Assembly: GCA_031213475.1 (NCBI GenBank)
Contig: JARUPZ010000005.1
Location: 7,498,988 to 7,562,987 of the forward strand
Source: Nereocystis luetkeana
Taxonomy: Eukaryota; Sar; Phaeophyceae; Laminariales; Laminariaceae
Direction: 5' to 3'
DNA length: 64,000 nt
Below, piece by piece: positions 10,614 to 58,593 of the stretch (position 1 is its first letter; each line of letters begins with the position of its first letter). Both the position numbers and the translations under genes were made by a program. The notes under the pieces were generated by a model, which worked only from the letters and a program-made list of their open reading frames with translations, was not told the DNA's origin and made no database searches.

Positions 10614-10747
10614 ACTATTACGGGGGGCCATAGTAAATAGGACCTACGGTACACACGAAAAAAAAAACAGATATTTTCCTACCAGGTATTTTTACTAACA
10701 AAATTTGGTCCTACCAGGTATTTACTATCATATGGTCCCCCGCAATC
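10614..10747. mobile_element. Element A, copy 5, carrying two TACCWGGTA insertions
   Basis: Same subtype as copies 1 and 4 but longer. At 10680 and 10712 the sequence reads CCTACCAGGTATTT where the related copies read CCTATTT, so two independent 7-bp insertions at TA are visible in one element. Confidence 0.9.
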
Positions 10748-11148
10748 ATAGTGCCGCCTTCCGGCCATAGTGCAGGTGAAACCGCTTGGCACAGATGGGG
10801 TTAACCAGTGTTGCAGCGTGCGGAGTAGTTAGTGCCGTTTTACGCTACAGTATAGTGCCGGTATTGTTCGCCGGTGCATACACACCGACAATACAGAGGC
10901 AACGTCACTGCTCTGTATAGCTTCAAATATAACATCGCGCATACCGGGAAAGAGAAAAGACGACCAACCGGTCGCGAGGGTGCGGGGAGGTAGAGGGAGG
11001 CATGGTGGGGCGAAGCCTAAACCTCAGCCTTCCGCATGCGGTTGAGACGCAAGGAGCGTCGACCCAGGTGCATTTTCTCTCTGAAGCCCCAAGGTCGACC
11101 GGTGCCCTTTTAGGGAGCTGTCAGCTGGTACTACAGTAGTACCCAATA

Positions 11149-11190
<42 letters not shown>

Positions 11191-12959
11191 GCCGGTTACT
11201 GCTGCTGCTGAAGCTGCTGTAGCGCAGGGAGGGATGGCGATAGCAGGGGCACTCTTGCGGACTACTGATACGGCACTGCCGCTGCACGCGAATAGGTAGA
11301 AAGCTGCGTGAGGGAAAACGGGTGTATCTGGTACACACTTACGGCTCACACTGTTATGGAAACAAACAAAGTATTCCAAGGTGCACCACGTACATATAAG
11401 GCACGTCTATACGTACAGTCAGCCGTGAAACACTTCCAATCTACAACAGCAGCAACAGCAGCAGCAGCGGCAGCGGGATGCTGATATTGGTGCGGGGGCT
11501 GGCGGCCGGGTGGGTTGCCGGCATTAAATTGATTGGGGCGGGTGCCCGCCCATTTCCCCTAAGAGAATTGAGTTTTGCCATCCTGCTGCCATCCCGCCAT
11601 CCCCTTGAGACGAAAAAAAAAGGTTATAGTGTACGCAAGGGAATTATACTTCAGTCCACATCAGCAGAACCAGGTACGGCAGTATCGATACAAGTAAAAA
11701 AAAAAAGGCAGCATTGCACGCTGCGAGCGCCCGAGAGCCAAAGCAAAGATGCCAGAAGGCATGCATGCCAAGCACAAAAAAAAATAAAAAACGTGCGTTG
11801 CCAAGAGTGTAGGGCCGAGTGTTCCACACGAAAAAAGAAACAAGCATCAATACTCAATAGTTTTGGCGTCATTCAAGGCAAAATCAGGGCAAATTTGGTG
11901 TGTCTTTCCAAGGGGTAAAAAGTGCTGTCTCCTGACACATTTGCCGGGAGACGCCGGTCACCAGCCAGCCCCGACTCTCGGCCTCGCCCCTCTACCCCCG
12001 CAGGCCGGTCTGCTTATTGTGTGCGTGGCCGACGCTGCTGAATTTTCGCCATCCATTTTCTCCGACGTGCGTTTCACAATTCAATCTCCGACCGCACACA
12101 AAACATGCCCATGGAAGGAAGAAAATACCCTTTTGGGACCCGGGAAGAGAAGCGACGAACACTGCTGTGTCGGGTGCGGTGGCGGACATCGACATCGGAA
12201 ATCGAGCTCGACACGACACCGATATACAAACACGCAGAAGGACCACAGTACGTTGATCGATACGATTTTGATTTTTTTCCGATTTTTTGTATCAGGTACA
12301 TCCGAAGCTTCCGTTCCTCAGCGTTGACACCGAAAGACACGGGAATAAACGATATACCACCTGGGGGGTGGAGGGCAAAACATGTTAGATATATCGATAA
12401 TTTTTTCCAAACGATATCCAACACTATCGTAATGGTCAGGAGCAGGCGTATCAGCCTTCAAATGGGAGCACCAAGAAACATGGGCAACTGCTGGTAGTAG
12501 CATATACCTGGTACCTGGTACGTACCGAGGTATCATGCTGCGTGCGGGTCAGCGATTTCCTCGCATTGTATATACCTGGTACACGCATACCTGGTATACA
12601 GCAGGTTTACGGTGTTTGCAAAGGGTTTTGGTTGGAACCGATTTGGTTGGGTTTCTTATGGTCTGTTTCCCACACAAAAATTGACCCTAACCCATGAGAC
12701 CTTCCTAAAAGATGAAAACCCAACCCGAGCATAGTTGAGCGAAGAGTGGCCAAATACCATTTCCAACCTGATCATTCTTGGGTTTACAGTACGCACGTAG
12801 GAAGGTTCCATGGCTTAGAGGTCATTCGTTTACACCTGGGAGGAAACAGACCACGAACAGACCCAACCAACTTGGTTCCAACCAAAGTCTTCGCCAGCAC
12901 CCAACAGTATTGGTGGGAGCTCGGGCACCCGCCCCGCCCCGATTGCTTCGTGCGACCAA

Positions 12960-55267: not shown

Positions 55268-57254
55268 GATCAGAGGAGGGGCGTGATTCTCTGGAGGGGG
55301 GGGGGGGGGGGGGGGGGCGAGGGAGGAGGGGAAGGGGGGGGGGGGGGAGGGAGGGAGATTTTCTCTTCGTGATATTTTTCAGTGGGGTTGCTTGTTTTGT
55401 GCATACAGTAGTTGGTGTTGTCCTCCTCCGTCTATTGATGGCCAAAGACAGGAGTAGGCATCTGTCAGTCGGTAGTAGTCTTCGTGCTCGTGGTTTAGTT
55501 AGATGCGGAGGCATGATTCGCTGGAGGGGGGGGAAGGGGGGACGGGCGAGGTATACTCGATATCGTGCATGGCCGTAGTCGTGTGACCTTAGGCCCTGGC
55601 GTCCGTACAATGCCGGGACGGGGCACGTCGGGATTTTACCGACCGGGCAGGCATTTGCTTGCATCAAGCGCGAAGCGAAACGTTAGTTGTTTTGGGCAAA
55701 TCGAATGAAGGGCGAGCTGCATCCTACTAAGAACCGCTTTTGAGGCGGTTGTCTTGCACGTGGGAGACGGGGGGGGGGGGGGGGTCGGGGAAATATTCGT
55801 GACTTATTTTCGTTGATTTACCAGGTATTTATCACTCGAATCTCTCGACTTAAACACAGGCGTGGACGTTTGGTCTGATTTACGCATGGTTTTGCTGGAT
55901 GTGGGTTTCTGGCTTCGGAGGCGTGGTCAGCGGGCAGGGAAAAGGGGGGGGCAGGGGAAGTGTTTCCTTGTACTATATATTGTTCTGTCGTTTTTGTTGT
56001 GACGTGCTGTGATGTTTTTGCATTAGCGCTAAGTTTTTTAGTTCGGTATTTCATGCCTGTGGTGGTTGTTTCGTATCTGTCTTGTACTTGTTTTTAGTGT
56101 GGGGACGGAATCGGCCCCGTCCTTGTCAGTAAACCGCACTCAATCCACTCACGCGTATTATGAAATATGTATTTGTGTTTATACTCGGAAGGTGGAGGCG
56201 TCGGGGGGGGGGAGAGAGGACACGGGGGGGGAGGGGTAGCTTGATGGTCGTTGTAAAAAGCAGAACAAGCCAACTGCCATCGTAACCAGCTAATGCTTTT
56301 CTCTGAGTCGTAGTACTGCTGTAATTCGATAATGGGATGTGCAGGATGGAGGGTAGACGGTCACACCCGAGGGATACATTCTGGCATTTTTGTTGTTGTG
56401 CCATCTCGTGGTTTGGTGTTCGTGGCGATTCTGGTTGCGCGGCAGTCGAGGGTGCCGCAACCGTGTCCGGAGTGAGAGGACAGGTCCTTACCTCCCCTCC
56501 CCCCCCGCTGCATGCACCCACGCCGGCCTACTATTTGTTGCTCGGCAGGTTTTGTTTGCTTGACAGTCTGTGCGTACTTCCTTAGTGGTGGGTGTGGGGT
56601 CGGCTAGACGCGGTAATACGCCGCCGAAAAAGGGTATACTACACGGCAGCAGCAACAGCAGCAGCAGCAGCAGCAGCACAGACGCTTGTTTGGGTGCTCA
56701 CCCAGGAGTAGCACTTGACACCTATATATAGGAGCTACCGTGCACCACTCTGCAGTGTTTTTTCTTGTTAAACGTTAATGTACAAAGAGTACTTTATGTA
56801 TGGGGGCATAGTGGTATACCGCAACGGCAACAACAGCAGCAGCAGCAGCACAAGCAGCGCAGACACCTCTTGGAGCCGGAATGTTGTAGCTCGACAGCCG
56901 TAGCACAGGGGCCTGGGTGACAGCTAAAGCCCGCCGTAGCGCAAGAGTCCCCGATGCAGTTCCGTACTACTAGTACGACCGTTAGTACCTCAGTATGGCA
57001 GTACTGGTAGTAGTAGTGGTGTAAACTTTAACTTTTCTTTTAATTCTCCTTTTTTTTTCAACTCCCGACGCCGTGACCCGTAGAACCCTTCGCCTTGCCT
57101 TGGTCGGAGCTCTGACCCGCGGTCTATAGAGCGCCCGACTGTTGGAGGTGTGTGTCTCTGATGGGAGTAGGAGCGGTGTTCCGTCTCGAAAGGGATGCGT
57201 GGTCAATGGTCAAATGACTAAGGCAAGCAACCAATAAGTACGCCCCCCCCCTTT

Positions 57255-57800
57255 TTGACATAGATATAGGTTGGGTTGGCGTCGGTTGGGCACGATACTG
57301 TATACCATGCCGCTCACCACTTAAGCTGGACAACCAGGGTACCGTTTTTTTTTTTAGTGTTGTTTCCCCTCTATGGCCGGCGCTCATGGATGGTGGTCGA
57401 GTTTGATCATTGGTGGGGGTAGAGGTCCTTCACTCCGCACAAGGGGAATGATCGTAACACGTACTGGTAGTGTTTATGGTGAGGCACCCAAGAGGCCGTA
57501 ACATAGTGCGCCCGTTGCCTGTCGTATCTGGAAGTGGCCACACCCGAAATTAGATGAACTCATTGGAGCTGTCATTCATATGCGACTCCGCCTCGCTAGC
57601 GGTTCTTGGTACAGTGCAGCTAGCTTACCCTTCATGCGACTCGCCGGACACCTCATGTTTCACTTCGCGCTTGGTGCAAGCGATCTGTCTGGTCGGTGAA
57701 AACCCAACGTGCTCCGTCCCGGCATTGCAGGGATGCGAGGGTCTATGGTCATATGGTCATACGGCTACGGCCATGCATGATGTCGAATACCCCCCTCCCT
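57255..57800 (+). repeat. Element D, long copy 3
   Basis: Third long copy downstream of the channel gene, beginning TAGGTTGGGTTGGCGTCGG and ending at CATGCATGATGTCGAATACC. Confidence 0.8.
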
Positions 57801-58475
57801 CTACCCCTGGAAAACGCCTTCCTAGATTTGTGTCGCGCGAAGCGGTCGGCTGTGCCTTTCTTCGCTCGTCGTCGACTTGCTCACTCACCACACGTCGATG
57901 TTGCGTTACCTTGCGTCATCTCGGACGCCCTTGTAGCAAGTCACGTACGTACAGATTGAACCCCCGCGGGACCTGTGCTGCCGTTTTGAGCGTGAACGAC
58001 TCGAGGAAATTTCAACAGCGGAGTACGTTATTTTCACTCGATATATACGTGTATGTCTACTGTACGTAGTAGTGGCCGCAACTTTACTGTACTAGTATAT
58101 ATATAATATGAATATATACATATATATAGGTATATAAATATATAATATACATATATATTATACATATATATGTATAAATATATATATATATATAATATCA
58201 TATATTAAGTGAGTAACATAATTGAGTTCGCGACCTCAAGACTATGCTGACGTGTGCTGAAAACTTGCGCCTCCAATCGAGAGAGCTGCATTGGACATAC
58301 CTGTTCTTTTTTTTTCGTTTCTTGCGATGAGACATCCTATCTTCTTATGACGAATAAGATGTCGTGCTGTATCTATTAAATACCTGCAAAACCGCTGGGT
58401 GTTTCCGTCTGCTTCGATGGGGCCGAGAAGACGTCGCCACGCCCACCCCGCTTCGCAAACGCGACCTAAAAGGGT

Positions 58476-58593
58476 TATTACGGGGGACCATAGTTAATAG
58501 GACCTATGGTACACACAAAAACCTACCAGGTATATGTTTTGCAATTTTTACGAACACTATTTGGTCCTATTTACTCTGGTCCCCCGTAATAGC
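58476..58593. mobile_element. Element A, copy 16, with TACCWGGTA insertion
   Basis: TATTACGGGGGACCATAG to CTCTGGTCCCCCGTAATA. The core reads AACCTACCAGGTATATG where the empty allele would be AACCTATATG. Confidence 0.9.

Follow-up and report, generated by a model that had tools for sequence, protein, structure and literature searches.

Several described transposons leave short scars at TA dinucleotides. Sleeping Beauty (SB) leaves TAC(A/T)GTA, with a 3-bp core, and Minos leaves CGAG/CTCG between TAs. The mariner element Mos1 has the tip CCA(GG) and a 3-nt overhang, and its typical scar keeps one CCA/TGG. Tip bases left between duplicated TAs are described for Tc1/mariner elements in passages of PMC4561436 and PMC7827188, the latter of which gives 3-nt 3' overhangs for SB and mariner excision, and a passage of PMC3770610 describes scars that are variable and also non-canonical. 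For the grass elements Stowaway/Osmar, part of PMC1925063 describes short pieces of the terminal inverted repeat (TIR) inside TAs, variable in length and at the same site in different copies, and for Ectocarpus a section of PMC12477816 gives 17 Mariner-Tc1 families with almost 12,000 copies. Here the word TACCWGGTA was investigated in a 64,000-base stretch of Nereocystis luetkeana DNA (contig JARUPZ010000005.1), referred to as the window. The copies of this word are probably excision footprints of a Tc1/mariner-like cut-and-paste element. As in SB and Tc1-like footprints, the TA is duplicated, putative tip bases lie between the two TAs and the target is AT-rich and palindromic; unlike in SB, the core measures 5 bp and has CC/GG sides, and no transposase was seen in the window. 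The scars share with those described for Stowaway/Osmar the short tip pieces within TAs, the variable length and the recurrence at one site across copies. However, Stowaway tips begin with CTCC and its scars were described at single loci, whereas here one word occurs 34 times in 64 kb. Mos1 shares the tip CCA(GG) and the 3-nt overhang with the element proposed here and differs in its scar, which is CCA/TGG and not CCWGG.

Expected counts of TACCWGGTA were taken from 100 dinucleotide shuffles of the window, and a second estimate from an order-2 Markov model. The excess over shuffles that the initial annotation had predicted was found within the window, with 34 copies (about one per 1.9 kb) against a shuffle mean of 0.47 and maximum of 2, and a Markov expectation of 0.56. 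Because CCAGG and CCTGG together were not enriched overall (155 in the window, 156.4 in the shuffles), the excess is tied to the TA...TA frame. The form TACC-N1-GGTA (TACCNGGTA) had 36 copies, compared with 0 to 6 copies at each of the other gap lengths from 0 to 15 bases. Its central base was A in 20, T in 14, C in 1 and G in 1. The occurrence of both A and T had been read as a sign of mismatch repair; it is uninformative, because TACCAGGTA read on the opposite strand is TACCTGGTA, so that one fixed scar shows either centre according to its orientation. Only the near-absence of C and G (2/36) is informative about the scar centre. One-mismatch neighbors numbered 35 against 12.4 expected, and therefore most copies are little decayed. 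A word search of the open-access literature for exact matches to TACCWGGTA and its variants returned one paper, on an unrelated subject, which does not exclude an earlier description; the double scar word had 9 stray records among viral contigs. The copies, all found by word count and some also by the alignment or indel census described below, are as follows.

1387-1395, plus strand, scar TACCTGGTA
5419-5427, plus strand, scar TACCAGGTA
6786-6794, plus strand, scar TACCAGGTA
7008-7027, plus strand, two scars TACCTGGTA (7008, 7019)
10680-10688, plus strand, scar TACCAGGTA in element A (alignment, census)
10712-10720, plus strand, scar TACCAGGTA in element A (alignment; missed by the census)
12505-12520, plus strand, double scar TACCTGGTACCTGGTA (12505, 12512)
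12573-12596, plus strand, two scars TACCTGGTA (12573, 12588)
14396-14404, plus strand, scar TACCTGGTA
14519-14534, plus strand, double scar TACCAGGTACCAGGTA (14519, 14526)
17535-17543, plus strand, scar TACCAGGTA
17754-17762, plus strand, scar TACCAGGTA
18538-18546, plus strand, scar TACCAGGTA within an element C copy, with two further bases
18624-18632, plus strand, scar TACCAGGTA
19054-19062, plus strand, scar TACCTGGTA in element A (alignment, census)
19642-19650, plus strand, scar TACCAGGTA
19789-19797, plus strand, scar TACCTGGTA
20964-20972, plus strand, scar TACCAGGTA, followed immediately by CCTGGTT, probably a degraded second scar in the opposite orientation
22727-22735, plus strand, scar TACCAGGTA
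24735-24743, plus strand, scar TACCTGGTA
36224-36232, plus strand, scar TACCAGGTA
36668-36676, plus strand, scar TACCAGGTA in element A (alignment, census)
36904-36912, plus strand, scar TACCAGGTA
38056-38064, plus strand, scar TACCTGGTA, adjoining TATTAATA
38159-38167, plus strand, scar TACCAGGTA
38316-38324, plus strand, scar TACCTGGTA, at the right edge of a family E element
43073-43081, plus strand, scar TACCAGGTA
44947-44955, plus strand, scar TACCTGGTA
55819-55827, plus strand, scar TACCAGGTA
58524-58532, plus strand, scar TACCAGGTA in element A (alignment, census)

Element A, a miniature inverted-repeat transposable element (MITE), is about 115 bp long, carries the inverted repeats TTACGGGGGACCATAG and has TA at both ends. 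Nineteen full or partial sequences were aligned, with 38463 and 38600 together making up one interrupted copy; three further fragments, located near 19370, 33070 and 39535, were left out. The filled and empty alleles proposed in the initial annotation were confirmed: all five quoted sites (10680, 10712, 19054, 36668 and 58524), distributed over four copies, are exact 7-bp gains at a TA, and other element A copies have a plain TA there. The filled copy 19026 and the copy 2388, empty at the same place, are 95% identical. Scarred copies lie on different branches of the element A tree, of which several or most are weakly supported, and because the filled copies are scattered over this tree the gains look independent and derived. 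Four sequences are filled at the third TA of the central TATATA, each with a different core, namely CCAGG (36668), CCTGG as oriented (58524), CCAG (18894) and CCAAGG (38624), a pattern that would be expected from repeated independent hits on a good target. A search of viral contigs with the element A end gave 0 matches. The copies concerned are listed here.

2388-2504, plus strand, element A copy, empty at the scar sites
10610-10748, minus strand, element A copy with scars 10680 and 10712 and a 5-bp TA-TCA-TA gain at 10726
18826-18969, minus strand, element A copy with variant gains CTGG/CCAG (18894) and CAAGG (18851)
19026-19128, minus strand, element A copy with scar 19054; its other end is at 19370-19394, beyond the nested element C
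36604-36729, plus strand, element A copy with scar 36668
38600-38685, plus strand, element A half-copy with variant gain CCAAGG (38624)
39619-39717, plus strand, element A copy with variant gain CCCGG (39653)
58473-58595, minus strand, element A copy with scar 58524, at the same element TA as 36668

Two other MITEs lie in element A. Element C, with inverted repeats GGGTCATTCTTATCGGAGAG, is present at 18340-18620 and 19125-19375; the second of these copies interrupts element A at 19128, where 3 bp (TAA) are duplicated, and the element is probably PIF/Harbinger-like, as judged from its sequence. Element B, with ends TTAACCCTTTTAGAACCGCAGTC, is nested in element A at 38504-38604 with a TA duplication.

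An indel census was made by comparing the window with itself, blind to the motif, and gave 82 distinct gains of 3-13 bp. By alignment, census and tree together, the CCWGG-type gains look derived, TA-specific and independently repeated, as the initial annotation had held. The form TA-X-TA was found in 12/33 gains of 6-8 bp compared with 3/49 at other lengths; an arbitrary 6-8-bp segment is of this type at ~2% of window positions and at 4-10% within element A. Gains bounded by a duplicated TA, as looked for in Tc1/mariner footprints, were thus seen both in this census and at 5/5 quoted sites. Ten of the 12 TA-type gains were CCWGG or near relatives (four exact CCWGG, CTGG twice, CCCGG, CCAAGG, CAAGG and CAAG). 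The claim that every element A gain is CCWGG plus TA held for the five quoted sites and failed beyond them, where variant cores and 6-bp and 8-bp gains also occurred at TA: CTGG/CCAG (18894), CCAAGG (38624), CCCGG (39653), CAAGG (18851) and TCA (10726). A CTGG gain in copy 1407, judged by eye, was less clean. In another repeat family, one site held CTGG in one copy (57461) and CCAGG in a second (32263), where TG took the place of the closing TA.

The scar flanks showed the palindromic preference AYA-TA-TRT, with an outward excess of A at -1, C/T at -2 and A at -3. Controls were TAs within 400 bp; 26/34 sites were used, and 8 were dropped for another scar within 17 bp. The combined A-1, Y-2, A-3 score, which was post hoc, was 1.73 for the scars and 1.10 for the local TA controls and was reached by 0/4000 draws, in keeping with the AT-rich palindromic target of a Tc1/mariner footprint. 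YA-TA-TR on both sides was found at 5/26 scar sites vs 4% of all TAs. Other TA-N5-TA words had no flank preference (2443/4000). Among other words only CCAG/CTGG (111/4000) and CAAG/CTTG (160/4000) leaned toward the CCWGG flank score, no better than the TA-N8-TA control; with a matrix from the CCWGG flanks, CCAG/CTGG gave 51, CGAG/CTCG 242 and CAAG/CTTG 423 of 4000. According to part of PMC7913693, the Tc1-like ZB prefers ATATATAT and similar targets are reported for SB and Bari; a passage of PMC9976928 gives a different target, AAGTACTT, for the pogo-like Passer. The scar flank preference is close to that published for Tc1-like transposons.

The following course of events is the most likely. 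A Tc1/mariner-like transposon would insert at TA, preferring AYA-TA-TRT, and duplicate the TA; later excision by staggered cuts would keep a few tip bases between two TAs, and end joining would close the gap, with the fixed 5-bp core CCAGG/CCTGG as the commonest product and CCAG/CTGG, CCGG, CCAAGG and CCATGG as other outcomes of the same joining. If the tips were 5'-CCA, 3-nt overhangs CCA + CCA with one base lost or overlapped would give CC(T)GG or CC(A)GG. In an alternative geometry the tips would be CCAGG, with a 5-nt near-palindromic overhang that pairs with itself except at the center. Words expected from CCA tips were enriched (CCAG/CTGG 11 vs 1.7 expected, CCGG 4 vs 1.0, CCATGG 1 vs 0.13), whereas those from CCT tips were not (1 vs 1.5, 0 vs 0.07 and 0 vs 6.3 expected). 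CAG/CTG between TAs occurred 20 times vs 6.1 expected. Single CCA/TGG scars numbered 16 vs 6.9 expected, a count that is not clean because element A itself holds TACCATA. The scar variants suggest TIR tips CCA over CCWGG. The CCWGG-like transposon ends proposed in the initial annotation were accordingly not retained, as the variants fit CCA/TGG better and a search for a transposon bounded by CCWGG did no better than displaced controls: among 445 TACCWGG...CCWGGTA pairs the best inner inverted-repeat match was 14/24, reached by 78/200 displaced controls. The same search agrees with the statement that such a transposon is absent from the window. From the proposed logic of Tc1/mariner-type excision, the TA gains remain, and mismatch repair, constant length and CCWGG ends fall away; the Tc1-like flank preference, which the initial annotation had not used, adds to the support.

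When TACCA...TGGTA was searched for, a hairpin of 83 bp emerged at 20832-20914, whose inner TIR match of 15/23 was reached by 0/100 block shuffles (best 14). It belongs to family E, old, diverged hairpin MITEs of about 80-92 bp with TIR CCACTCTGTCCGTAAATATAAG..., TA on both sides and mostly CCA tips.

5550-5633, strand not assigned, family E MITE, one end TA-CCA, the other degraded
20832-20914, strand not assigned, family E MITE TA-CCAGTCTGG...CACACTGG-TA, the sole copy in which the CCA tips and the TAs were seen intact on both sides
22282-22363, strand not assigned, family E MITE, tips CCT and CCA
38236-38316, strand not assigned, family E MITE, one tip CCA
48249-48340, strand not assigned, family E MITE from outside the profile set, profile match E 1.6e-5, ends without TACC

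The family profile was built from four copies. Membership is partly circular because two of these were weak matches (E 7.6 and 9.8-15) in the first search; the profile recovered two copies not included in it, 48249 and 31337 (E 4e-4). Family E shows that CCA-tipped TA elements lived in this DNA; as the source of the scars it is only a candidate. That family E, or its autonomous parent, left the scars is unlikely. Its CCA tips, seen in 7/9 ends in which TACC is preserved (only such ends were counted), and the intact tips and significant inner TIR of copy 20832 speak for it, but its insertion flanks are unlike the scar flanks (mean flank score -1.2 for family E, -0.8 for all TAs and +0.7 for the scars) and its copies are old and diverged.

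Several observations weigh against excision footprints of a Tc1/mariner-like element. The 64-kb window yielded no transposon whose ends match, a transposase match was obtained for 0/10 window open reading frames given to Pfam, and the scars outnumber any candidate source in the window. The only CCA-tipped TA family, E, has non-matching flanks, with A at -3 in 0/9 ends. CCAAGG, CAAGG and CAAG need extra changes beyond the joining of CCA and TGG, and 2/12 TA-type census gains are the unrelated words GAATC and TGGTCA. The flank score was set, with the SB consensus as a guide, once these flanks had already been viewed, so that the test was not blind, and the control class TA-N8-TA also reached 110/4000. 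Tc1/mariner footprints are given as 2-4 bp in a passage of PMC7913693, compared with five bases in the core here.

Three further explanations dispense with a larger element. TACCWGGTA could be a functional protein-binding motif under selection, with filled and empty pairs due to chance or deletions; it is a near-palindromic 9-mer whose 34 exact copies exceed the one-mismatch excess. This is very unlikely, as the word appears as an insertion in scattered MITE copies whose close relatives are empty, and variants of other lengths occur at TA too. We consider it more improbable still that CCWGG plus TA is an ultrashort mobile unit inserted by some enzyme. The window holds no source element and the gain was a constant 7 bp in the five quoted cases, but variable relatives occur at the same kind of site, the target preference is Tc1-like as published, and five bases would give an enzyme nothing to recognize; the new kind of ultrashort insertion offered in the initial annotation is not needed. 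Local microduplication or slippage is scarcely credible even though the sites lie in TA-rich stretches and two doubles (12505, 14519) are tandem in the same orientation, since slippage copies neighboring bases and should not bring a constant foreign CCWGG core to unrelated TAs. Both a kept motif and slippage are hard to square with the scars because insertion machinery with such a target taste appears to act there.

Other words of similar form were also in excess in the window. TATTAATA occurred 18 times vs 0.32 expected (for example at 14741, 17341 and 19657). Its flanks matched the insertion flanks of element A (0/4000 controls, z 4.5, 16/18 sites used), for which the matrix was made from 17/19 ends, two being dropped for abutting TATTAATA. 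TACCWGGTA flanks showed the opposite trend on this matrix, with 3998/4000 controls scoring at least as high. If element A, with its tip TTA, left 3-nt overhangs overlapping by their own TA, TATTAATA would result, and it is possible, as a lead, that this word is a second scar class from element A. Against this, AT-only TA-N4-TA controls also leaned toward element A flanks (61/4000); no TATTAATA gain or filled and empty pair was present in the indel census of the window. The Minos-like word TACGAGTA/TACTCGTA occurred 16 times vs 2.0 expected, with no clear flank preference (1225/4000); we take its CGAG to recall the Minos footprint, whose core differs from CCWGG. TACAGCAGTA/TACTGCTGTA occurred 8 times vs 0.16 expected.

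A predicted minus-strand exon near 5170 matched 28 distinct PDB sequences of N-myristoyltransferase (best E 1.1e-6). The joined predicted exons had 90% identity to Ectocarpus sp., 88 and 87% to two EukProt proteins and 83% to Discosporangium. By these matches the window is eukaryotic and its host a brown alga. Between the predicted first and second exons (5190-14808) lie 13/34 scars.

1670-15680, minus strand, predicted N-myristoyltransferase gene; its first intron, also predicted, spans ~9.6 kb

A dispersed repeat family, CATGCTCCGTCCCGGCATTGTAGGGATGCGAGGGTCTATGG..., was seen at 30626-32621, 41047-41215, 53056-53224 and 57684-57753, and in reverse orientation near 29600 and 50617.

Work on excision footprints usually treats single loci; here one recurring word retains the target preference in its flanks. 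Short TA gains of this kind will pass for ordinary indels or motifs in annotation. We propose tentatively, at somewhat below an even chance, that scars may be what chiefly survives of DNA transposition in this genome, where several words would coexist, each decodable to the tips and preferred target of the transposon behind it: TACCWGGTA (tip CCA, AYA-TA-TRT, with no such element found in the window) and TATTAATA (tip TTA, element A). If this is true, scar words would be usable genome-wide to recover extinct transposons without remaining copies. They could serve as a fossil record of transposons that leave few or no copies, and could reveal how a brown alga joins broken ends.

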